Shown here: piece by piece, positions 1 to 15,931 of the stretch
Layout of the letters: every line of letters starts with the position of its first letter
How positions within the stretch are numbered: the stretch's first letter is position 1
Assembly: GCA_945876945.1 (NCBI GenBank)
Contig: CAMCQE010000023.1
Span: 1-39,188, forward strand
Source: Klebsiella pneumoniae
Lineage (GTDB): Bacteria; Pseudomonadota; Gammaproteobacteria; Ga0077536
Direction of reading: 5' to 3'
Length of the DNA stretch: 39,188 nucleotides
Position numbers and translations under genes: made by a program
The notes under the pieces: generated by a model
Database searches by the model: none
Told to the model about the DNA's origin: nothing
The model's input: only the letters and a program-made list of their open reading frames with translations

Positions 1-981
1 GCCCGGTTGGAGCACCAGCCGTGCCGCACCGGCCGCGTCGGTAATCTTGTCGATTGCGGTCTGCATGCGCTTAAGCGCAAAGGGCACGCCGTTCGCGTCG
101 GTATCGGTCAGCAGGGCAGCCAGACAGTCTTCGCGAAACATTGCCGCGCAATCACAATCCCGCAAGGACTCTTTCGCGCCGGTGACCAAGTGCCGCATGG
201 CTTGCGCGATTTCCTGCGAGCCCGGTGCGAATGCTGTGGGGTCGAAGGCGACCAGCATCATGCTGAGCGGCCGCTTGTAGCGCTTGCTGGCCGCAACTTC
301 CTGCGTCAGACGCTCGTCAAAATACGTGAAGGTATAGAGCCCGAATTCGGTGTCGACCAAACCGCCTGCGCCGCGCGCATCGCCCAGCTCACCCCGCGTC
401 AGCGCGAGCGTGCCGCGGGCGTTGATACGGTAGGCATAGATGGTGCGGAGTTCTGCGCGCTCCGCCTCAAAGCGCTGACCACAACCCAGACACAGGCAGG
501 CGGTGTCGGGCTCGGTGGAAACATAATTGCAGCTCCCGCAGAGGTAGCTGCTGGCAGGGCGCTCATAGTCCACCCCGATGTGGCGCAACTGATGCCCGCA
601 TTTGCGGCAGGTGTAGCGCACGCCGTCCTGAAACTCGGTTTCCGGGGCCATATGGCCGCAGCGGAAGTGATGCAGCAGGTCGCCCACCTCAACGTTGCTG
701 CTGGTGCAGGAAGGACAGACTTCACGGAAGAGCAGGGCATGGTGCCCGCACTGCCAACAAAAATAGCCGCGCTCGGCAAACTGTCGGTCCACATAGCCCA
801 ATTCGGCGAGTTGATCGAGATCGTCAAACGCATCCCGCGTCGAAATCCCCAGCTCGCTGATGCCCGGGAACGAAAACCCGTTCAGGGCGCTCGGGTCAGG
901 GACCGGGCTCAAAAGCTGTTGCGAATTTCTGGCGGCCAGCTTCAGCAGGCCAAGATAGCGCTCGCTCGTGGGAAGCATCAT
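1..981 (-). CDS. Zinc-ribbon (TackOD1-like) protein with degenerate GGDEF-like domain, partial at window edge
   Basis: The frame is open from ATG 981 to the window edge without a stop, giving 327 residues with the C-terminus missing. Residues 75-167 hold paired cysteines (C75/C78, C89/C92, C108, C125/C128, C148/C151, C162/C164/C167), as expected for several stacked zinc ribbons. From about residue 215 the sequence follows the start of a GGDEF domain (ERLTQEVAASKRYKRPLSMM), but the signature loop reads FREDC instead of GGDEF, so cyclase activity is unlikely. This layout fits the TackOD1 (thaumarchaeal output domain 1) group of signalling proteins, recalled rather than searched. The start is the second of two candidates (TTG, then ATG ATG), with a purine-rich GAGCGAGAA upstream. 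The plus-strand reading over the same bases is a shadow. The frame and cysteine pattern are secure; the family name is moderately so. Confidence 0.72.
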   Translation of the reverse strand, partial: MMLPTSERYLGLLKLAARNSQQLLSPVPDPSALNGFSFPGISELGISTRDAFDDLDQLAELGYVDRQFAERGYFCWQCGHHALLFREVCPSCTSSNVEVGDLLHHFRCGHMAPETEFQDGVRYTCRKCGHQLRHIGVDYERPASSYLCGSCNYVSTEPDTACLCLGCGQRFEAERAELRTIYAYRINARGTLALTRGELGDARGAGGLVDTEFGLYTFTYFDERLTQEVAASKRYKRPLSMMLVAFDPTAFAPGSQEIAQAMRHLVTGAKESLRDCDCAAMFREDCLAALLTDTDANGVPFALKRMQTAIDKITDAAGAARLVLQPG

Positions 982-4758: not shown

Positions 4759-7722
4759 GTGAGGCGAGATGCGCAATCGACGCGCTTAATCTCCACCGCT
4801 CGCTGGGTGTGGCTGACCTTCGTCAAAAACGCCCTGCTGCCCCTGTTGCTGGTGGAGGTGGCGATTATTGGCGTGTATGTGGCCACCACCATCATTTCGC
4901 ATCGCGCGAACGTGGCTTCGATGCGGGGGCTCGCGACCACCGAAATTCAATCCATTGCGAAGGCAGAGGCCAAAAACATCAGCGCGCAGCTCGCGTCGGT
5001 GACGGGCCTGATGGAAGTGCTGCGCGTCGCAACTTATCGCGCGCTGGAGTTCCCCTATCAACCGTCCGCCGAGACGCTGGCCAGTCTTCGGATGTCGCCC
5101 GACGGCGTCTATTACACGGCCGTCGACACCGGCACCGCGGCTGCGTTCTATAGCGGCGCCGTGCCGGTCGGCGCGGGTGAAATGGCTAAAGCGCAGCGCC
5201 TGCTCCAACTCGACCACACAATGAAAGCCATTCGGGGCGCGAACCGCATTGTGGTGCAGTCCTACTTCAACAGCTTCGACTCGCTGAACATCATCTATCC
5301 CTGGTTTGATGTGCTCAGCCAGTACTCGCCGAAAATGTCAGTCCCAACGTACAACTTCTACTACGAAGCAGACGATCGGCATAACCCCAAGCGCGCTGTG
5401 GTCTGGACCGCACCGTACCTTGACCCGGCGGGCGCCGGTTGGATTGTGTCGGCGATCGCCCCGGTCTACCGCCGCGATTTCCTCGAAGGGGTGGCGGGAA
5501 TCGATATCACCGTCGAGGCGATTGTGCGCCAGGTGCTGAATTTGCAAGTGCCCTGGCAGGCTTACGGCGTGTTGGTGTCTGGCGAAGGCACGGTCATCGC
5601 CTTGCCTCCGGCCGGCGAAAAAGATTTCCGTCTCTCCGAACTGACTAAGCACCACTATCAGACGGCCATTACCAAAGACACGCTCAAGCCCGACGACTTC
5701 AACCTTTACAAACGTCCGGCCCTCGCGCCGCTGGCAGCGCAGGTAGGGACGCGCCCGCAGGGGGTCGCCGCATTTGATTTTGGCGGTGCCAAGATTGTGG
5801 GCTGGGCCTCGGTGGCGGAAACCGGTTGGAAACTGCTAATCCTTGTGCCAGAGGCAAACTTGTTCTCGGTGGCCGATGCGCTCCGCACCAACGCCAATAT
5901 GACCGCCGGGTTGATGGTTGGCTGCATGCTTGCTTTCTACCTCGGCTATTTTGTTTGGCTCCGCGTTCGGGCCGAGCGCGAGAGCCTGCGGGTGACGGCG
6001 CCATTGCAGGCGCTGAACAACATGGCCGAGCGCTTCGATAACGGCGATTACGACCAGAACCCTGAACATTTCGAGATTTTTGAATTCGAACAATCGGTCC
6101 AGCGTTTTGCCGGGATGGGCCGCTCGCTGGGAGATATGGTCAGTCGCTTACAGGACGCTGAGCGCGTGGTGAGTGCCAGCGAAGAACGGCTGAGTCTGGT
6201 CCTGACGGCGTCGGGACAGGGCGTGTGGGATTGGCGGATTGCCGAAAATCGGACCTGGCGCTCGCTGCGCTTCAAGGCCTTGCTCGGCTTGGCCGGGCCG
6301 GCAGACGTGGTGGATGGGCTCGCGATTCGCAGGCACTTGCATCCCGCAGACAGTCAACGCTTCGAGGCGCGGCTGGAAGCCTTGTTTGCCGGTCGCGGCG
6401 CGATTCTCGACGAGGAAATCCGGCTGGGGCGCGGCGACGGCACCTACGTCTGGGTCCAGTGTGTCGCCCAGTTATCGAGCGATGACCCACGCCCCGGGCG
6501 CCTGGTGGGCGCGATTGCCGATGTCACCGAGCGGCGTCTGGCAGAAGAAACGCTGCGGCAGGCTAAAGACAGCGCCGAAGCAGCGAGTCTCGCCAAGGGC
6601 CAGTTTCTGGCCACTGTGAGCCACGAAATCCGTACCCCGCTTAACGGGGTGCTGGGCATGTCGCTGTTGCTGGCGGATACCGCGCTTACCGAAGAGCAAC
6701 GCGATTACGTCGACACCATTACCAGCTCCGGTCAGCATTTGATGGAAGTGCTGACGGAGGTCCTGGATTTCTCCCGCATTGAAGCCGGCCGTCTTGAACT
6801 GGATGAGGCGCCGTTCGCGCTGGCGGGTCTGGTGGAAGAGGTGGCGCGCCTGATCTCGCCGCCGGCGCGTGGCAAGGGGCTACGCTTCATTTGGCGGATC
6901 ACGGGCGCGGTTCCGCCACTTGTGAAAGGCGATGCCACCCGCCTGCGGCAGGTCTTGCTGAATCTGTTAGGCAACGCGGTGAAGTTCACGCGCGAGGGCT
7001 CGGTGGATTTCGAGGTAACGGCAAAGCCGGTGGAGGACGGGCGTCTGGCGCTTGGCTTTGAGGTACTCGACACCGGGGTGGGGATCCCGCCGGACAAACT
7101 CACCCAGATTTTTGAGGCCTTCAGTCAGGCGGATAACTCGCATTCGCGCGAGTTTGGCGGGACGGGCCTCGGCCTCACCATTTCCGATCGGCTGGTTTCT
7201 TTGATGGGCGGCAAGATTGCAGCCAGCGCAAGGGCCGGCGGTGGCAGCGTCTTTCGCTTCGAGATCGTCCTGGACGTGGTGGCGACACCCGAAACCTTGG
7301 CCACGCCAACAGCCTCGCCGCCGCCGGAGGCGAGCTCGCGCAGGCCCCGACGCGTGCTGGTGGCCGAGGACAACCTGATCAACCGGCGTCTGGTGCAGGT
7401 GATGCTGCAAAAACTGGGCTATGAGGTCGGCCTTGCAGAGAACGGTCGTCTCGCGCTTGATGCGCTGGAGACCCGCAGGCCCGACGTGCTGCTACTCGAT
7501 TTGCAGATGCCGGTGCTGAGCGGGCTTGAGGTCGCGCGTCGCGTTCGCGAGCGTGAACAGGCATTGAACCTGCCGAGGTTGCCGATTATTGCGGTGACCG
7601 CCAATTCATCCGCGGCCGACCGCGAGGCCAGTCTGGCCGCCGGCGCCGACACGTTCCTCGCCAAGCCTTTTACCGCCCCCGAACTTGCCGCGCAGATCGA
7701 GGCGCTGCTTGGGCCAGTCTGA
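4759..7722 (+). CDS. Hybrid sensor histidine kinase (Cache-type sensor, PAS, HisKA, HATPase, receiver)
   Basis: This 987-residue inner-membrane sensor has a first membrane helix at about 22-46, a periplasmic double-Cache-like sensor (about 50-375), a second helix at about 380-402, a HAMP-like linker, and PAS/PAC (about 475-595). HisKA follows with phospho-accepting H622 ([15 protein letters not shown]), then HATPase_c with [11 protein letters not shown] and a GGTGLGL G-box. A C-terminal receiver has its phosphate-accepting Asp at D914 ([10 protein letters not shown]) and a conserved KPF lysine. No Hpt domain is present, so phosphotransfer must go to a separate protein. The GTG at 4759 is chosen because GGGAG lies 7 bases upstream; the frame is open back to 4573, which would overlap alkA. 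No response regulator lies nearby, so the ligand and target are unknown. Confidence 0.9.
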
Positions 7723-7743
7723 GTTTTCAGCGCTCGCCCAGGC

Positions 7744-8883
7744 TCAAAATTGCCGCAGGCCGGCGTAGCGCGCACGGTGATAGCGAGCGTCGCCCAGAGT
7801 CTGCTGGGCCACGCGGGCGCGCTTCAGGAATAGCCCAATCTCCTCGGCGTCGGTCATGCCGATGCCGCCGTGCAACTGCACCGCTTCGCTGGACACAAGC
7901 TCCAGCGTTTCGCAGGCCTTGGCTTGCGCGAGACTGGCGAGCAACGGGGCCTCCGGGTTTTGGGTATCGAGCGCATCCAGCGCTGCGCGCACGGCCGAGC
8001 GCGTGAGTTCGAGTTCGCAGAACATCAGCGCCGCGCGGTGCTTCAGCGCTTGAAAAGAACCAATCACCACCCCGAACTGTTGACGCATGCGCAGATAGTT
8101 CAGGGTGCGGTCGAACGCTTCTTGCGCCGTGCCCAGCATTTCGGCCGCGAGCCCCGCGCAGGCGCCGTCCAGCACCGCTGACAGCGCGGGCCAGGCGCCA
8201 TCCAGCGGCCCCAGCAAGGCCTCGGCCGGCACTCGCAGATTGGTGAACGCCAGCGTCGCCGCGTTGCGCGAGTCCACCAGATTGAGCCGGCGGCAGTGCA
8301 GGCCGGCGGACTGCGGCGGCACGAGGAACACGCTGAGACCGTTCGCGTCGCCCGGCTTGCCGCTGGTGCGCGCCACGACCAGCAGGGTGTCTGCCACATG
8401 GCCATCAAGCACCATGGTTTTGCGCCCGTTGAGGCAATAGCCGTCGCCGTTGGCCTCGGCGCTGAGCGCGGTGTGCAAGGGCGCGTGGTGCGGGCCTTCA
8501 TCGAGCGCGAGCGCGAGAATTTTCTCGCCGCTGGCGACGGCCGGCAGCAGTGCTGCGCGTTGACCCTCATTGCCCAAAGCACGCACGAGTGGGGCGCCAA
8601 GCAGCACGGTCGCCAGCAGGGGTGAGGCCGCGAGCGTGCGGCCTGCCTGCTCCATGATTTGGCCGGCGCCCTGATAGCCAAAATCGACGCCGCCTTCGCT
8701 TTCCGGAATGAGAATGCCGGCCCAGCCCAGTTCGGCCATGGCCTGCCATGTGTTGCGGTCAAAGCCAGTCGCGTCGGCGCGGTCGCGCAGATCGCGCAAG
8801 GCCTTCACGGGCTGCTTCTCGGCAAAAAAATCGCGCGCCGCCTGCTGCAGCATCTGTTGTTCGTCGTTCAGGATAAGGGTCAT
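7744..8883 (-). CDS. Acyl-CoA dehydrogenase, small partner-type subunit
   Basis: This 379-residue flavoprotein has the three acyl-CoA dehydrogenase regions: N-terminal helices, a middle beta domain around 120-230, and a C-terminal helical bundle with the FAD-contact motif MRQQFGVVIGSFQALKHRAA and a late QLHGGIGMTDAEE. It begins 9 bases after the stop of a second, dissimilar acyl-CoA dehydrogenase. Such tandem unlike pairs often form alpha2beta2 heterotetramers (as in actinobacterial FadE/ChsE pairs) acting on bulky or sterol-side-chain CoA thioesters. That role is inferred from pairing, not shown. ATG 8883 has GAGG about 11 bases upstream. It is convergent with the histidine kinase, 21 bases apart. 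Confidence 0.9.
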   Translation of the reverse strand: MTLILNDEQQMLQQAARDFFAEKQPVKALRDLRDRADATGFDRNTWQAMAELGWAGILIPESEGGVDFGYQGAGQIMEQAGRTLAASPLLATVLLGAPLVRALGNEGQRAALLPAVASGEKILALALDEGPHHAPLHTALSAEANGDGYCLNGRKTMVLDGHVADTLLVVARTSGKPGDANGLSVFLVPPQSAGLHCRRLNLVDSRNAATLAFTNLRVPAEALLGPLDGAWPALSAVLDGACAGLAAEMLGTAQEAFDRTLNYLRMRQQFGVVIGSFQALKHRAALMFCELELTRSAVRAALDALDTQNPEAPLLASLAQAKACETLELVSSEAVQLHGGIGMTDAEEIGLFLKRARVAQQTLGDARYHRARYAGLRQF

Positions 8884-8892
8884 GGCGGGGCC

Positions 8893-10077
8893 TCAATCGG
8901 GCAGGCCAAGCACGCGCTTGGCAATGACGTTTAGCTGGATTTCGCTGGTGCCGCCTTCAATGGAATTGCCCTTGGAGCGCAACCAGGTGCGACAGATGGT
9001 GAGTTCTTCTTCGGTGAAATCCTCACCTTCCCAGCCTAGCGCGGCGGTGCCGGCGCATTTGAGGATGAGTTCGAACTTGCGCTTGTTTTGCTCGGTGCCG
9101 TAGTACTTGAACATGGAGGACAGCCCGCCGTTGGCGGCGCCGGCGCTGCTCTCTTCGGCCGCGCGGCGCAAGGTGAGGGCGAAGGCGTGGTCATCCATCA
9201 CGTGCCGGGCCACCGCGTCGCGCAGCACCGGATCGCCGATGCTGCCGTCGGCCAGCCCCAGATAACGCTGGGCGATGACATCGACCGGCGGCGTGGTGCC
9301 GCCAACGGTGCGGCCGATTTCGGAGATCATGCCGCGCTCGTGCTGAAGCAGTTCTTTGGCGATATCCCAGCCGCCGTTGATGTTGCCCACCAGATTGGCT
9401 TTGGGCACTTCCACGTTGGTGAAGAAAGTTTCACAGAAGGCAGAGGCGCCGCTGATGAGTTTGATCGGCCGCGCTTCCACGCCGGGACTCGCCATATCGA
9501 ATAACAGAAAGCTGATGCCACCGTGTTTGGACTCGGTGCTGGTGCGCACCAGACAGAAAATCCAGTCGGCGAGATGGGCGTAGGAGGTCCAGACTTTTTG
9601 CCCGTTGACCAGCCAGTGCTCACCGCGGTCTTCGGCCCGCGTTTGCAGCGAGGCCAGATCGGAACCTGCGCCGGGCTCGCTATAGCCCTGGCACCAGCGG
9701 ATTTCACCGCGCGCAATCGGCGGCAGGAATTCGGCTTTTTGCGCACTTGTGCCGCGGGTCAGAAGCACCGGCCCCAACATGCTGATGCCAAAGCCGAACA
9801 AGGGCTGGCGGCAGCGTAAACGCTGCATTTCCTCCTTGAGCACCAGCGCCTCGGTCGCGCTTAAGCCGCCGCCGCCGTATTCACGCGGCCAGGTGGGCAC
9901 CGTCCAGCCGCGCTCGACCATCGCCGCCAGCCAGCGCTGGCTGTCGGGGTGTTTGAAGACCGGATTGCGCCCGCCCCAAACGCGTTCGTCTTCGGGCATC
10001 GGGGTGCGCATTGAGGCCGGGCAGTTGGCCTCCAGCCAGGCGCGCGTCTCGGCGCGGAAAGTCTCCAGAGCGTCCAC
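8893..10077 (-). CDS. Acyl-CoA dehydrogenase, large partner-type subunit
   Basis: This 394-residue acyl-CoA dehydrogenase shows the middle-domain signature YSEPGAGSDLASLQTRA and the C-terminal FAD/dimer signature SIEGGTSEIQ followed by NVIAKRVLGLPD. It would catalyse alpha,beta-dehydrogenation of an acyl-CoA, passing electrons to ETF. The start is a GTG at 10077 with GGAG 8 bases upstream; no in-frame ATG fits better. It is tightly coupled to the downstream partner gene, probably as a heteromeric enzyme. A 61-base gap separates it from the SCO-MauG gene upstream, so it could belong to the same long transcript or have its own promoter. The substrate is not evident. Confidence 0.9.
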   Translation of the reverse strand: MDALETFRAETRAWLEANCPASMRTPMPEDERVWGGRNPVFKHPDSQRWLAAMVERGWTVPTWPREYGGGGLSATEALVLKEEMQRLRCRQPLFGFGISMLGPVLLTRGTSAQKAEFLPPIARGEIRWCQGYSEPGAGSDLASLQTRAEDRGEHWLVNGQKVWTSYAHLADWIFCLVRTSTESKHGGISFLLFDMASPGVEARPIKLISGASAFCETFFTNVEVPKANLVGNINGGWDIAKELLQHERGMISEIGRTVGGTTPPVDVIAQRYLGLADGSIGDPVLRDAVARHVMDDHAFALTLRRAAEESSAGAANGGLSSMFKYYGTEQNKRKFELILKCAGTAALGWEGEDFTEEELTICRTWLRSKGNSIEGGTSEIQLNVIAKRVLGLPD

Positions 10078-10138: not shown

Positions 10139-11992
10139 TCAGCGGCGGGTGGCGTCGCCAATGGGCGCCGCCCAGGCGTCGCGCACCAGTGCCGGCACCG
10201 AGTGGCCGGTCAGGGCTTGCAGCAAGCTCACCAAGTCGGCGCGCTCTGCGGCGCTCAAGCCCAGCGGCTTCAGCCGCGGATCCAGCCCTTCATTGGCGAT
10301 CCCGCCGGCATTGTAGAAATCGATTACGGCGGCGAGATCGGGCAGGGAGCCGTCGTGCATGAACGGCGCGGTCAGCGCCACGTTGCGCAGGGACGGCGTG
10401 CGAAAACGCCAGCGGTCAGCGGGCTGTTGGGTCACTTCATAACGCCCCAAATCTTGCGCGTTTTCCAGGAGTTCGACCGCGCGGTCGCGGGCGAGTACGG
10501 GCACCTGGGTGCCGGGCGCCAGCGTGACCGGTGCGGTGTGCGCCGGTGTGTGCATCGATTGTGCGAAGCCGACGCCGGTGTTGTGCAGGTCATGGTCGGT
10601 GAATAAGGCGTCGCTCGCGCTAAGCGTGTGGCAACTGCTGCAGGCGGCTTTGCCGGAAAAGAGCGCGAAGCCGCGTTCGGCGGCGGGCGAAAAATCAGGC
10701 TCAGGCCGGCCGGCGCGCCAGCGATCGAAGGGGCTGTCGCCGGCGATCAGGCTCCGCTCGTAGGCGGCAAGCGCCGCTCCAAGCGTCTCCATGCTGGCGG
10801 GCTTGCCGTCAAACGCGGCTTCAAATTGGCCGGCGTAGTCTTTCAGGCCGGTAACTTTCTCCAGCACAAAGCCGATCGACGGATTGCCCATTTCGTTGGC
10901 CGCCAGCAGCGGGGCCCAGACCTGCTGCTCGAGGCGCGACTCTCGACTGTCCACAAACAGCCGGGGCAGCAGGCCTACGTTGAGCAGCGTTGGTGCGTTA
11001 CGTCGCACGGTACGGCCTTCGATGCCAACCGGCGTCGCCAGTTCATTGCTGGTAAAGCCCTGCTCGGGCACATGGCAGCTGGCGCAGGAGAGGGTGTTGT
11101 TATGCGAGAGGCGGCGGTCAAAGAACAGCCGACGGCCCAGCGCGATTTGCGCCGACGTCGGCAGCGGGCCGGGGAGCGCGGGCAAGCCGGCTTCGCCGGC
11201 CTTGAGTCGGGCCCGCAAGTCGAGCGCTTCCGGGCGGCGCGCACCGAGTGCCCGCGACTGGCTGGCATAGGCGTTGGAATCATAGCCGCCGCGCGGGTCA
11301 CCGCTGCCGGTGCTTGCCGCAGGCGAGGCGCTGGCCGATGCCGCGGGGGCGAGCAGCAAGGTTTCGATGTCGGCGCCGACCAGTTTGGAATCCAGAAAGC
11401 CCGAGGTGTATTCATTGCGAATCCGCCCTTGGGGGTCGATCAAAAACACCCGCAGGCTGTGCGCTAATTCGCCGCCTTCGCGCTGCAGATCCTGACGGTA
11501 GCCGCCCAGCAGGGCGCGCATCTCCGCCGGCGCCGCCGCCACGAAGCGCCAATCGAATCCTTGGGGGCGGAAGTGCCGGGCGTAGTCTTCGAGCACCTCG
11601 GGCGTATCGCGGGCAGGGTCAAAGCTCACACTGATAAAGCGCAGTTGCGCCGCCAGATCTTTGCGAGTGGCGAGCCGCTTGGCCGTCTGCGCCAGCGTCA
11701 TGCTCGCCATCGGACACCCCTGCGCATCGCCGCAAAGCGTGTAGATGAAACTCAGCACCACGAGCTTCTGCCCAAACAGGGCCTGCAGGGAGAGCGGCTG
11801 GCGGGATTCGTCCAGCACTTGACCGTCTGGCGCCTGCCGGATCGGGGGTAGCGCGTAGCTGCCGGGCGTTGGCGCATCGAAAACTTTAGCGGGCGCTGGC
11901 GCCTGATGGGCCAGCGCCGGGAGCGTGCCGAAGAAACCGAGGACGGCTGGCAACAGCGCGCGGACCCAGCAGTGCCGCGCCAGCCGTGGCAT
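10139..11992 (-). CDS. SCO copper chaperone fused to di-haem MauG/cytochrome c peroxidase, secreted
   Basis: This 617-residue protein has a signal peptide (about 1-29, ending LPALAHQ). A SCO/SenC thioredoxin-fold domain (about 45-215) carries copper-ligand candidates C87, C93 and H178. An Ala/Ser/Gly linker (about 216-245) leads to a di-haem cytochrome c peroxidase/MauG domain (about 250-605) with two CxxCH sites (C303-H307 and C451-H455). The SCO cysteines are spaced CX5CP instead of the usual CX3CP. The ATG at 11992 is chosen because it starts a good signal peptide, sits one base after the mtoX stop, and has AGGTAAG just upstream. In known methanethiol oxidase loci SCO and MauG are separate neighbours of mtoX. 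The likely role is periplasmic copper delivery and oxidative maturation of MtoX; this is inference. Confidence 0.9.
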   Translation of the reverse strand: MPRLARHCWVRALLPAVLGFFGTLPALAHQAPAPAKVFDAPTPGSYALPPIRQAPDGQVLDESRQPLSLQALFGQKLVVLSFIYTLCGDAQGCPMASMTLAQTAKRLATRKDLAAQLRFISVSFDPARDTPEVLEDYARHFRPQGFDWRFVAAAPAEMRALLGGYRQDLQREGGELAHSLRVFLIDPQGRIRNEYTSGFLDSKLVGADIETLLLAPAASASASPAASTGSGDPRGGYDSNAYASQSRALGARRPEALDLRARLKAGEAGLPALPGPLPTSAQIALGRRLFFDRRLSHNNTLSCASCHVPEQGFTSNELATPVGIEGRTVRRNAPTLLNVGLLPRLFVDSRESRLEQQVWAPLLAANEMGNPSIGFVLEKVTGLKDYAGQFEAAFDGKPASMETLGAALAAYERSLIAGDSPFDRWRAGRPEPDFSPAAERGFALFSGKAACSSCHTLSASDALFTDHDLHNTGVGFAQSMHTPAHTAPVTLAPGTQVPVLARDRAVELLENAQDLGRYEVTQQPADRWRFRTPSLRNVALTAPFMHDGSLPDLAAVIDFYNAGGIANEGLDPRLKPLGLSAAERADLVSLLQALTGHSVPALVRDAWAAPIGDATRR

Positions 11993-11993
11993 C

Positions 11994-13346
11994 TTACCTG
12001 GCCGTCGTCGCGACCTCAGCGGTCGGTGCATCCAGGGCCGATTGCGCATAGATCGAGCGGGCATTCAGCGTCATCTGATGCGGCCGACCCAGCTTCTCTT
12101 TCACGAAGTTCATCTTGATCGCAGGGGTGAGCGCCTTGCCATCCCAGTGGTAGGCCTTGAAGAACTGCAGATCGCCTTCCGGCCCTTCGGTCTTGTCCCA
12201 GTTGGCCAGCAGCGAGGAGGTGAAATACACCCGCTTGCCGTCCCAGCTTTGCGACACCATGTTCACCTGGGCGCCAATGTTCTTTTCGTAAATCTGCTTA
12301 GGCTTGAAGGGATCCGAGATATCGAACAGGCGCGTCATGCCGTCGTTCCAGGTGTTGACCCACAGGCGCGAGTCGTCGGCCGCAATGGACATGTCGACCG
12401 GCAGCGGAATCTTCTTCGGATCGCCAATCGTGGCCACGGCCTGCGCCTGCCACTCACCGGCCTTGTCGCGATGAATCAGCCAGATTTCCGAAGTGAGCGC
12501 GGTGGCGGTCAGGCAGTAGTCGTGTTTTTCATTCCAGGCGCAGCGAATCTCGAGCGGAGCACCGGGCACATCAAAAATCTTCAGCGGCTTTTTGGTGTGC
12601 AGGTCCCACACCGTCACCGTATTGCCAAAACGCTTCATGGCTTCGCCGTCGGCCATCATCTTGCCGAGGTTCATCATGTAGTTGTTCCAGCCGGTGAACG
12701 AGGAGGTGAGCATCACGTTCAAGCGGGGCAGCGCGCGCACGTCGTACCCGTAGCCGTCGGCCAGTTTGCCGGTCTTCACCGCGCCATTGAGGTTGTCGTC
12801 GGTCGGCATCCAGTGGGTGGCGAGATATTCGCCCTCATTGCTGTATTCCACCATGCCGCTGCGGCCACCGTGGTCCTGATTATTGGACAGGCCGGTGATG
12901 AGCATGCGGCCGGGCAGGGCGTAGAAACTGTGCGGGCCCACCACGCCGCCGCTGGTCGCGACGAAGTCGGTAATGGTGTTCACCAGTTTCGGTTTGGCCG
13001 GGTCGGTGTGGACGTCGAAGATGAAGATGTTGCTGCTGTCCAGACCGCCCGCCCACAGAAAGCGGCGGTCGTCGGTGTAGCCCGAGTGATGCGCCTCGTT
13101 GCGCCCGCCCACCGACACGCTGTGGATCATCTTGCCGAAGGTTTTGGAGCCGGGGCGCACGTCGATAGTGACCAGTTTGTCCTGCTCGTCACCCATGCCA
13201 ATCACGCCCAGCGTCCAGATGTACATGAAATCTTCCTGCGTGCTGAGGCGTTTCATATAGGGCGACACGCAGGTTTCGTCGGCGAACGCGGGGGCCACGC
13301 AGAACATGCCCAGCAGGAGGGCGAACAAGCGGGAAGACGGCTTCAT
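11994..13346 (-). CDS. mtoX: SBP56/selenium-binding-protein family, periplasmic methanethiol oxidase
   Basis: This 450-residue protein has a clear signal peptide (22 residues, cut after AFA) and the SBP56/SELENBP1 beta-propeller fold. Landmarks are TCVSPY near the mature N-terminus (C26), a GGRNEAHHSG histidine pair, VGPHSF, and GRPHQM near the C-terminus. Bacterial members (MtoX) are copper enzymes oxidising methanethiol to formaldehyde, sulfide and hydrogen peroxide in the periplasm. The ATG at 13346 has GGAGAA about 9 bases upstream and yields the signal peptide. The longer open frame to 13526 overlaps the transporter gene and is rejected. The one-base gap to the SCO-MauG gene, whose domains match known MtoX maturation partners, strongly supports methanethiol oxidase over a generic selenium-binding role. 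Confidence 0.9.
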   Translation of the reverse strand: MKPSSRLFALLLGMFCVAPAFADETCVSPYMKRLSTQEDFMYIWTLGVIGMGDEQDKLVTIDVRPGSKTFGKMIHSVSVGGRNEAHHSGYTDDRRFLWAGGLDSSNIFIFDVHTDPAKPKLVNTITDFVATSGGVVGPHSFYALPGRMLITGLSNNQDHGGRSGMVEYSNEGEYLATHWMPTDDNLNGAVKTGKLADGYGYDVRALPRLNVMLTSSFTGWNNYMMNLGKMMADGEAMKRFGNTVTVWDLHTKKPLKIFDVPGAPLEIRCAWNEKHDYCLTATALTSEIWLIHRDKAGEWQAQAVATIGDPKKIPLPVDMSIAADDSRLWVNTWNDGMTRLFDISDPFKPKQIYEKNIGAQVNMVSQSWDGKRVYFTSSLLANWDKTEGPEGDLQFFKAYHWDGKALTPAIKMNFVKEKLGRPHQMTLNARSIYAQSALDAPTAEVATTAR

Positions 13347-13378
13347 GCGATTAATTCTCCGTGTAATGACGAGAGGTA

Positions 13379-15862
13379 TTAGTGGAACGGCTTCCACATC
13401 AGGATGAGTTTGGGCATCAAGGTTAGCGCACCGAGTATGGCGACCGTCATGGCCACCGTGGTTAGTACGCCAAAAATGATACTGGGCACAAAATTCGAGA
13501 GCACCAGAATCGAGAAACCAAAGCACACCACCAGCGTCGTGTAGAACCCGGCCTTGGCGATGTTCGAGTGACAGTAGTACATGGTCTCAACGCCATCGCG
13601 GATTCGCGCGAACTCCACCCCGTAGCGATACAGGTAGTGGATGCAATCTTCCACCGCGATGCCAATCGTGAGTGAAGCCACCATGATCGTCATCATGTCG
13701 AGTGGAATGCCCATCCAGCCCATGAAGCCCAATACGCCGGCGGCCGCGATGATATTGGGGATAACGCCAATGAGCGCCGCTTTGAAGGAGCGGAACAGCA
13801 CCCAGAGAATGCCCAGCACGCCGAGGATTGACCAGCCGATCGACTGAATCTGGGAGGAATACAGGCTCTGCAACATGTTGTTGTAGAGCACCAGCAGGCC
13901 CACCATTTCAAACTCTTCGGGCTTCAGACCGACGTCGTGCATGAGGCCTGTGCGAATTGCTTCGAGCAGCGCCTGCCGATGCAGATTGGGCTGCGAGTCG
14001 AGAATGCGCAGCGAGATGCGCGCTTCGTCCGCCTCGATCGAAATATAGGGCGAGATCATCTCGTCCTTCAGATTGTCCGGCAGCTGCTTGTAGATGACGT
14101 TGAGTTCAAACGGATTGAATTCGCGGCCTTTGTTCAAGTCTTCAGCCACCCGCACCATTGACGCCAGCGAGGTGACTTTGCCGACGCCCGGGATGGTCTC
14201 GAGATAGTCGTGAACCTGCTTGATGCGCGCGACTTTCTCCGGCGTAAACCAGTAGTCGGATTTCTGCGACGTGGTGTCGTCAAACATCGCCGCGAGTTCC
14301 GCATCTTCGCCGTCGGGTGTGGTCGTGGGCGGGGCCGCGGTTTCTTTGGGAAATTTGAGAATGATGTCGATCGGCGTGGTGCCGCCGAGGGTTTCGTCAA
14401 CCTGCTTCAAACCCTGATAAATCTCGGTGGATTGCTTGAAGTAATTGATGAAACTGTTTTCCACCTGGAGCTTCAAGGTGCCCCAGACGCCGAGCACCGC
14501 AATCAGCGCGGTGGCGGCCAATACCAGCGTGCCGTGGCGGTCGGTAAAACGGGCGAGGCTCGCCGTGAAGCTCGCATTGCCCTCATCACTGACCTTGAGC
14601 GGTCTTTTGTTCATCAGCAGCATCACGCTGGGGATGAAGGTGAAGAGCACCACGAACACCACGACCAGACTCAGCGACATCATCCAGCCAAAATCGATGA
14701 TGGGCTTGATGTCACTGGTCACTAGCGAAAAGAAGCCCACGATGGAGGTGAGGTTGGTGTACAGACAGGGTTTGGCCATGTTGTGCGCCATCATGCGCAC
14801 GAGTTCGAACTGTGAGTGCTCCGGGTGCTCCCGATAGAGCTCCATGTAATGAACGATGAGATGGATGTTGATCGAAATCGTGAGAATCAGCGTGAGCGCG
14901 ATGAAGTTCGAGGAGATGACCGTTAACTCCCAACCCAGCAGTCCGAGCATGCCCAGAATCACTACCGTGCAATAAATGCAGGTCGCGAGCGGAATCAGCA
15001 CCCAGCGCAATTCGCGGAACAGGTAGCCCAGCATGCAGATGGCGAGCAGCAGCGCGCCGATACCGAACACCATGATGTCGCTGCGGACAAACGAAATCAG
15101 GTCGTTGGTGATCATTGGCAGGCCGCCGAGATGGATTCTGGCCTCGCCTTTGAAACTGGCCAGCACCTCGCGCAGTTGTTCGATCGCCGTGCGATTCACG
15201 TCCTCTTGCGTCCGCTTGCCTGTCTGATAGGCCGGCTCTACCACGGCGAGGCGGGCGGCCTCTTCCCCGGTTAGCGTGCCCCTGGCGCGCTTGAACACCA
15301 GATCGCCACGCTCGATGGCCAGCTGTCGGAACTCGGGATGGTCCCGCAGCATGACGCGGATTGCCGTCGTGCGCCCGTCGTCGCTCAACACCACTTTGCG
15401 GTAGAGCGGGCTGGTGAGCAGTTCCTCTTTGGCCTTGGCCAAATCGACGTCGGGCGATTCGAGCGTGCGGTAGTTGGTGGACGCTTCAGAGAGACTTGTC
15501 TCCTGATTTTTAACCAGCGGCACGTCCAGAATGCTGAGGACCGAATCGACTTCCGACAGCCCCTTCAGGCGCTCGCGAATGGCGGCTACCAGCTGGCGGG
15601 ATTCGGGGTCGAAGAGATCGGCCTTGGGCGTCACCGTCACAAACAGGAAGTCGCGGGTGGGATAGCGCTTGGTGCTATCCCGCCAGGCCTGAAAGTCGCT
15701 GTCGTTGTCGAGCAGGAGCGAATCCGCCGACGCGTCGATGCGAAATTTGCTGAGGCCGAGACTGAACACCACCAGCAATAGCCCCAACAGGCCCAGAGTG
15801 AGGCGGGGGAAGGCCAAAACGGTTCGGTCGTAAACAGAAGAGAAGGCTCGCAGCATCGTCAT
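13379..15862 (-). CDS. RND superfamily (MMPL-type) inner-membrane transporter
   Basis: This 827-residue exporter-like protein has the duplicated RND plan. One N-terminal helix is followed by a large periplasmic loop and a cluster of about five helices. The layout repeats in the second half, and the final helices read GALTLMPKLILMWKP. Length and layout match the predicted-exporter/MMPL family, which moves lipids, hopanoids or hydrophobic compounds; the cargo is unknown. Its stop is 32 bases before the mtoX start and all genes run the same way, so it probably heads the transporter-mtoX-SCO/MauG transcript. Start 15862 (ATG ACG ATG) is chosen over 15898 because the extra residues lack family character; 15856 is also possible. 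No membrane-fusion or outer-membrane partner gene is nearby. Confidence 0.88.
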   Translation of the reverse strand: MTMLRAFSSVYDRTVLAFPRLTLGLLGLLLVVFSLGLSKFRIDASADSLLLDNDSDFQAWRDSTKRYPTRDFLFVTVTPKADLFDPESRQLVAAIRERLKGLSEVDSVLSILDVPLVKNQETSLSEASTNYRTLESPDVDLAKAKEELLTSPLYRKVVLSDDGRTTAIRVMLRDHPEFRQLAIERGDLVFKRARGTLTGEEAARLAVVEPAYQTGKRTQEDVNRTAIEQLREVLASFKGEARIHLGGLPMITNDLISFVRSDIMVFGIGALLLAICMLGYLFRELRWVLIPLATCIYCTVVILGMLGLLGWELTVISSNFIALTLILTISINIHLIVHYMELYREHPEHSQFELVRMMAHNMAKPCLYTNLTSIVGFFSLVTSDIKPIIDFGWMMSLSLVVVFVVLFTFIPSVMLLMNKRPLKVSDEGNASFTASLARFTDRHGTLVLAATALIAVLGVWGTLKLQVENSFINYFKQSTEIYQGLKQVDETLGGTTPIDIILKFPKETAAPPTTTPDGEDAELAAMFDDTTSQKSDYWFTPEKVARIKQVHDYLETIPGVGKVTSLASMVRVAEDLNKGREFNPFELNVIYKQLPDNLKDEMISPYISIEADEARISLRILDSQPNLHRQALLEAIRTGLMHDVGLKPEEFEMVGLLVLYNNMLQSLYSSQIQSIGWSILGVLGILWVLFRSFKAALIGVIPNIIAAAGVLGFMGWMGIPLDMMTIMVASLTIGIAVEDCIHYLYRYGVEFARIRDGVETMYYCHSNIAKAGFYTTLVVCFGFSILVLSNFVPSIIFGVLTTVAMTVAILGALTLMPKLILMWKPFH

Positions 15863-15931
15863 TCGGCATCTTTGAAAGGTGGGTGAGAACGGCCGCATTG
15901 TAAGCCGCGAGCGGGGTTTCGCCGAGAAATT

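Follow-up and report, generated by a model that had tools for sequence, protein, structure and literature searches.

An MxdA-like gene joining a TackOD1 zinc module to a degenerate GGDEF domain with a retained I-site: a putative c-di-GMP effector

Introduction

What might a protein do that carries a cysteine-rich zinc module on a diguanylate cyclase domain whose active site is lost? The question is raised by a gene at the very edge of the window, by which we mean the whole 39,188-nucleotide stretch of DNA that was analyzed. The window is a complete contig (G000:C23) of a genome that is in 219 contigs and 97% complete. The zinc module, TackOD1, was described in 2018, and its function was called obscure (PMC5847659). 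We compared the gene with its relatives, with intact cyclases, and with the mxd locus of Shewanella oneidensis.

The gene and its coding strand

The minus-strand frame is open from 984 down to base 1 without a stop or frameshift (ORF translation); the initial annotation of this DNA had stated that it has no stop up to the edge. The contig ends inside the gene, and the assembly therefore has no sequence past base 1. The alignment of orthologs sets the gene start at the ATG at 978, with 981 or 984 also possible.

1..978, minus strand: MxdA-like gene, TackOD1 plus degenerate GGDEF; 3' end cut by the contig edge
1134..2951, minus strand: Amidohydro_3 family gene, the upstream neighbor; a similar gene lies at the corresponding position in the orthologous loci of the same genus

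The long shadow frame that had been noted on the other strand is also present, a 345-residue antisense frame at 7-1044 that overlaps the MxdA-like gene. Compared with two same-genus orthologs (L053 and L054), the minus-strand frame gives a dN of 0.24, a dS of 1.04-1.08 and a dN/dS of 0.22-0.23. It is under purifying selection, and the minus strand is therefore the coding strand. The Amidohydro_3 neighbor is not proposed as part of the mechanism discussed below.

Elsewhere in the window, the minus-strand region 10139-15898 encodes a 641-residue fusion of SCO1/SenC to a MauG-type di-haem peroxidase, beside genes for SBP56, of the selenium-binding protein family, and an MMPL-family transporter. 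The SCO1/SenC-MauG fusion looks unusual. That the region is a methanethiol-oxidase cluster is a guess.

Sampling of the family

Relatives were found via TackOD1 peptides, the TackOD1 profile, whole-protein similarity or, for MxdA, a promoter primer. The I-site was not a selection criterion for any of them, although this region does contribute to whole-protein searches. A first contig scan with a single-sequence query found no relative. A scan with a four-row alignment gave 321, the best 80 of which were kept.

The resulting alignment has 118 rows, or 116 when two duplicates are dropped; L105 and L110, both among the 116, share their last 300 residues. The tree and the alignment with cyclases use 113 rows, from which the two duplicates, the near-copy L110, the broken L059, and L175 were dropped. 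Two same-genus orthologs (72% identity) and one relative at 42% are complete.

The family had been called uncommon. This is fair within the class, where 19 of 369 genomes, the window's own included, exceed the Pfam cut-off for TackOD1, but the relatives from the four-row-alignment scan cross many phyla. Among the 8 other genomes of the same genus, 2 carry the gene (E < 1e-100).

The TackOD1 zinc module

The window protein matches the Pfam profile of TackOD1 (PF18551) with an E-value of 5.6e-44 and 150.4 bits, against a cut-off of 32. The zinc-rich module, at first described as TackOD1-like, is TackOD1 itself.

424..942, minus strand: TackOD1 zinc module (PF18551), residues 15-187; Pfam, E 5.6e-44
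481..759, minus strand: zinc-ligand motifs, five CxxC and one HxxC, read from the translation

The "about six" CxxC-type pairs that were first counted prove to be five CxxC motifs, at residues 76/79, 90/93, 126/129, 149/152 and 165/168, and one HxxC at 106/109. This is the published make-up of TackOD1, in which 11 cysteines form five CxxC motifs and one HxxC (PMC5847659). Each of these 11 cysteines is 97-100% conserved in the 118 family rows, and in that alignment no other part of the protein is as well conserved as the zinc module. All 32 listed matches among solved structures (E up to 1) have their best stretch in the GGDEF half and none matches TackOD1; the fold search of the model described below barely tested the zinc half.

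The degenerate GGDEF domain

The second half of the protein is a GGDEF domain without its catalytic residues.

1..372, minus strand: degenerate GGDEF domain, residues 205-328, C-terminal end missing; Pfam, AlphaFold model and PDB match
121..135, minus strand: GGDEF signature columns, reading REDCL, non-catalytic; alignment with 13 intact cyclases

On the window sequence by itself the GGDEF profile gives a weak match (E 0.0068), below the Pfam cut-off. Three complete relatives pass this cut-off: L003, L004 and, by a narrow margin (24.2 against 23.8), L002. A check against TackOD1 and GGDEF profiles, which had been named at the outset, thus gives a strong match for the first and, for the second, a match that is carried by the relatives. 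An AlphaFold model of the window protein, built with 45 relatives, has a mean pLDDT of 92.7 and a pTM of 0.63. Its residues 204-328 match GGDEF structures, best of all 5euh_A, the c-di-GMP-bound GGDEF domain of GcbC (Z 15.7, rmsd 1.8 over 121 residues). The modeled fold of the degenerate domain is plainly that of GGDEF. PelD is absent among the 50 fold matches shown, and no conclusion is drawn from this absence.

The active site was examined by aligning the family (113 rows) with 13 intact diguanylate cyclases from related genomes. All 13 cyclases have their signatures in the same columns, and there the window protein reads REDCL. The expectation of a GGDEF-like domain stands, on the modeled fold, but the signature given for it, FREDC, begins one residue early. 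In the same alignment the metal-Asp and guanine-Asn columns are both Ala in the window protein and mixed in the family. GG[DE]EF occurs in none of the 118 family rows, nor in 4 further rows (L142, L143, L148 and L149). The window protein thus has neither the GG(D/E)EF signature nor the catalytic Asp of an active diguanylate cyclase, and the label of a dead cyclase is borne out at the catalytic columns examined, REDCL plus the two Ala residues.

The retained I-site

The columns of the inhibitory site, or I-site, differ from those of the active site.

151..162, minus strand: I-site RxxD, here R-D-C-D, residues 275-278; on the I-site columns of the 13 intact diguanylate cyclases
67..69, minus strand: Arg306, 31 residues after the I-site Arg, a possible further I-site arginine; alignment

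In the alignment with the 13 cyclases, Arg is kept at its I-site column in 90 of the 113 family rows and Asp in 109, while the columns of the metal Asp, the guanine Asn and the signature are scrambled. Conservation in the GGDEF half peaks at D278 (95% of the 118 rows), and R275 shares third place among the 124 columns of this half (79%). With duplicates removed, RxxD is found in 89 of 116 rows and the I-site Asp in 110. The four loci outside these counts (L142, L143, L148 and L149) have RxxD in every case and all 11 cysteines.

The I-site Arg is replaced by Lys, Thr or another residue in 22 of the 116 rows, 20 of which are Bacteroidota by record title, and therefore not every member need bind alike. 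Two alphaproteobacterial plasmid loci, in Roseibium (L136) and Phyllobacterium (L137), keep TackOD1 and the GT2 gene that follows it and have lost RxxD at the I-site columns. PelD is reported to require a further Arg of its GGDEF domain (PMC8461298). In the family, R275 is paired with Arg or Lys at position 306 in 84 of the 118 rows, two duplicates included.

An RxxD at the I-site columns together with a dead active site, the combination known from PelD and BcsE, is thus present in the window protein. A degenerate GGDEF domain need not bind c-di-GMP; that of BpfD is reported not to (PMC11395469).

Homology to MxdA

The mxd locus was located by a promoter primer printed in PMC3691769, which matches exactly in one of 129 genomes of one genus, on a contig of 4,969,811 bases; a second printed primer adjoins the gene. 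The mxdA gene found there encodes 462 residues, and the next genes encode 442, 362 and 122. The second of the four encodes a GT2 and the third an HlyD-type protein, which fits the published operon order, mxdABCD (PMC3691769).

MxdA matches TackOD1 with an E-value of 4.7e-71, and its match to GGDEF is weak, just below the Pfam cut-off. The window protein aligns with MxdA at 24% identity over 315 residues (E 6e-26, one comparison) with the RxxD motifs in register, and the GT2 of L002 aligns with MxdB at 32% (E 5e-55).

The string NVDEF, said to be the degenerate signature of MxdA, occurs in the MxdA sequence and aligns opposite AFDPT of the window protein, upstream of the I-site (MxdA is L171, 8379-9767, minus strand). 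It sits in the first-strand region of the GGDEF fold, off the signature columns. If NVDEF has been so reported, the alignment would make it a misplacement.

MxdA is reported to bind c-di-GMP and to interact with the cyclase PdgA and with CheY3 (PMC7666153 and PMC11395469, both citing Gambari 2019), and mxdA and mxdB mutants are reported to be deficient in aggregation (PMC3691769). The nucleotide-sensing role first suggested for the window protein gains support from this homology to a reported c-di-GMP binder and from the conserved I-site.

Phylogeny and domain architecture

In the 113-row tree the window protein, the two same-genus orthologs, L056 and the Nitrospinota sequence L055 form a clade of short forms (support 100/99). 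MxdA falls in another clade. Short forms make up 9 of the 113 rows, one of which (L076) is cut by its contig edge. The window protein has 26 residues before the conserved Pro27 and is without the N-terminal domain of the MxdA type. Long forms have an extra N-terminal domain, which is a true receiver in L057 and L085. The N-terminal domain is not taken as family-defining because the short clade joins these two REC-bearing sequences in a supported group (97/90).

The N-terminal domain of the Rheinheimera protein L089 shows alternating strands and helices in its model, and Foldseek gives it long alignments to WspR and PleD, though at poor rmsd. A profile comparison of this domain with the receiver of L085 was not significant. 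That it is receiver-like is only a guess.

Matches to the family were found in 17 plasmid records, five of which were viewed. The Aeromonas caviae plasmid pKAM345_3 carries at 6584-8944 (L134) an MxdA-like gene followed by the beginning of a GT2 gene, which is cut by the start point of the record. This plasmid is 29 kb long and typed as mobilizable, a location that points to a module able to pass from one bacterium to another.

The GT2 partner and its gene cluster

In L002, L003 and L004 the TackOD1-GGDEF gene is followed 7-11 bases downstream by the gene of a GT2 of 435-436 residues. Both complete same-genus orthologs and the 42% relative have this PgaC-like GT2 directly downstream. Among NCBIfam models the GT2 of L002 is nearest to PgaC/IcaA (E 3.2e-49). 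On sequence, the partner is classed as PgaC-like and not as PgaC, because its score of 168 bits is far below the model cut-off of 422. The partner enzyme in the relatives probably makes a biofilm sugar polymer.

A GT2 gene on the same strand within 300 bases is present in 74 of the 80 loci of the named collection (downstream in 72), in 14 of the 17 loci of the class survey, and in all six others, the five plasmid loci and mxd. L061 and L066 have the GT2 gene upstream of the TackOD1 gene. The class set comprises 17 loci and draws on 16 of the 19 genomes that exceed the cut-off; the window's genome and the fragment-like G185 and G208 were left out. Named-collection loci without an adjacent GT2 gene are L059 (broken frame), L069 (285 bases from its contig end), L076 (contig edge), L085, L109 and L121. 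In the class set, L184 and L196 have none within 300 bases, and L176 has one at 306 bases.

An HlyD-type adaptor above the Pfam cut-off is encoded in the same cluster in 10 of the 11 loci scanned. The remaining locus, L089, has an adaptor candidate below the cut-off and a large neighbor without a match to OEP. An outer-membrane efflux protein is encoded in 3 of 4 loci, with L056, L101 and L053 matching OEP (Pfam). The annotation of a Plesiomonas plasmid gives the order diguanylate cyclase, glycosyltransferase, HlyD adaptor, and an annotated Phyllobacterium plasmid has a corresponding gene order.

In the window's own genome no GT2 ortholog was found: the L002 GT2 query gave six weak GT2 hits, the best at 46.7 bits. 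The outer-membrane efflux protein of L053 had no match there either, in a search without a positive control. An assembly gap likely explains the missing GT2, because the contig breaks off within the gene in an assembly of 97% completeness. The GT2 pairing of the window gene is inferred from its relatives.

Proposed function

We consider it probable that the gene is a short-form member of the MxdA family, encoding a putative c-di-GMP effector in which TackOD1 is joined to a dead GGDEF domain that keeps its I-site RxxD and which switches on a GT2. At high concentration, c-di-GMP would fill the I-site of the dead GGDEF domain, and the filled site would shift the arrangement of this domain relative to the zinc module. 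The rearranged protein would then activate or recruit its partner GT2, an MxdB-like enzyme, and the exopolysaccharide made by the partner would be exported by the adaptor and the outer-membrane factor. The logic would be that of PelD and BcsE, in which an inhibitory site has been turned into a receptor site, here on a different partner domain. Such PelD-like working is likely because the catalytic signature is gone, the I-site is kept, a GT2 is adjacent in the relatives, and MxdA is reported to bind c-di-GMP.

The best of the alternatives, which we regard as unlikely, is a scaffold that organizes the glycosyltransferase, diguanylate cyclases, or both without binding c-di-GMP, its I-site being kept for structure or protein contacts. 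The reported interactions of MxdA with PdgA and CheY3, the strong conservation of the zinc module, and the rows in which the I-site Arg is replaced all fit a scaffold. The reported binding of c-di-GMP by MxdA argues against it, as do the I-site columns, which stand out against the scrambled columns of the active site, and the pairing of R275 with Arg or Lys at 306, a pattern to be expected of a ligand pocket.

Somewhat less probable still is that the gene is an orphan in this genome, its operon past the edge lost and its product left with another role or none. The assembly lacks a GT2 ortholog and a match to the related outer-membrane efflux protein, and few other genomes of the genus carry the gene. 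However, the frame is under purifying selection and stays open to the break, which lies inside the gene; the genome is in 219 contigs and 97% complete, and the outer-membrane search was run without a positive control.

Highly improbable is a diguanylate cyclase that still works despite its unusual signature, a reading rejected for the residues at the signature, metal and guanine columns. The modeled GGDEF fold is intact and database annotators have named some relatives diguanylate cyclases, but the signature is REDCL, both key columns are Ala, and no family row has GG[DE]EF.

A putative effector of this kind would have a wider bearing. Linking TackOD1 to MxdA places the zinc domain in a pathway, points to a likely binding site in MxdA, and predicts that many phyla have an exopolysaccharide system gated by c-di-GMP. 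In the literature searched, which covers few subscription papers, "TackOD1" and "PF18551" occur only in PMC5847659, "Thaumarchaeal output domain" occurs nowhere, and MxdA and "I-site" occur together in no paper; the main text of PMC5847659 does not mention Mxd, and the link may be printed elsewhere. More tentatively, and with less confidence than we have in the effector itself, TackOD1-GGDEF proteins could be a large, phylum-crossing class of c-di-GMP receptors like PelD, BcsE and PilZ, with a little-studied GT2 polysaccharide synthase under their control. TackOD1 would couple the loaded I-site to the synthase, and the window's clade would have lost a receiver-like N-terminus and be gated by c-di-GMP alone.

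Comparison with known systems

The archaeal TackOD1 proteins have the same zinc module as the window protein. The architectures described for them in PMC5847659 are TackOD1, REC-TackOD1 and REC-wHTH-TackOD1, and that description mentions no GGDEF or glycosyltransferase partner.

BcsE (DUF2819) likewise has an I-site on a dead GGDEF domain and is reported to bind c-di-GMP there, in the cellulose system. Its partner domains are different, and it acts together with BcsQR and with BcsA through the PilZ domain of the latter (PMC8461298).

PelD of Pseudomonas resembles our reading of the window protein in its dead GGDEF domain, its RxxD as effector site, and its link to a polysaccharide synthase, that of Pel (PMC8461298). 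It differs in its GAF domain, its predicted transmembrane helices and the GT4 enzyme that it serves (PMC8461298); the window protein has the zinc module, and its relatives pair with a GT2. No GAF domain was found before the GGDEF domain of the window protein, where Pfam matches up to E 10 are to TackOD1 and zinc ribbons. The window protein may operate in the manner of PelD but is not classed as a PelD.

MxdA (SO_4180) differs from the window protein in sequence, with 24% identity, in belonging to a different clade, and in an N-terminal stretch of about 115 residues, ahead of TackOD1, that has no counterpart in the window protein. Like the window protein it combines TackOD1 with a degenerate GGDEF domain that has an I-site RxxD, RVTD in MxdA. 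Like the relatives of the window gene, mxdA has a GT2 gene next downstream, and its operon has an HlyD adaptor, as do their clusters.
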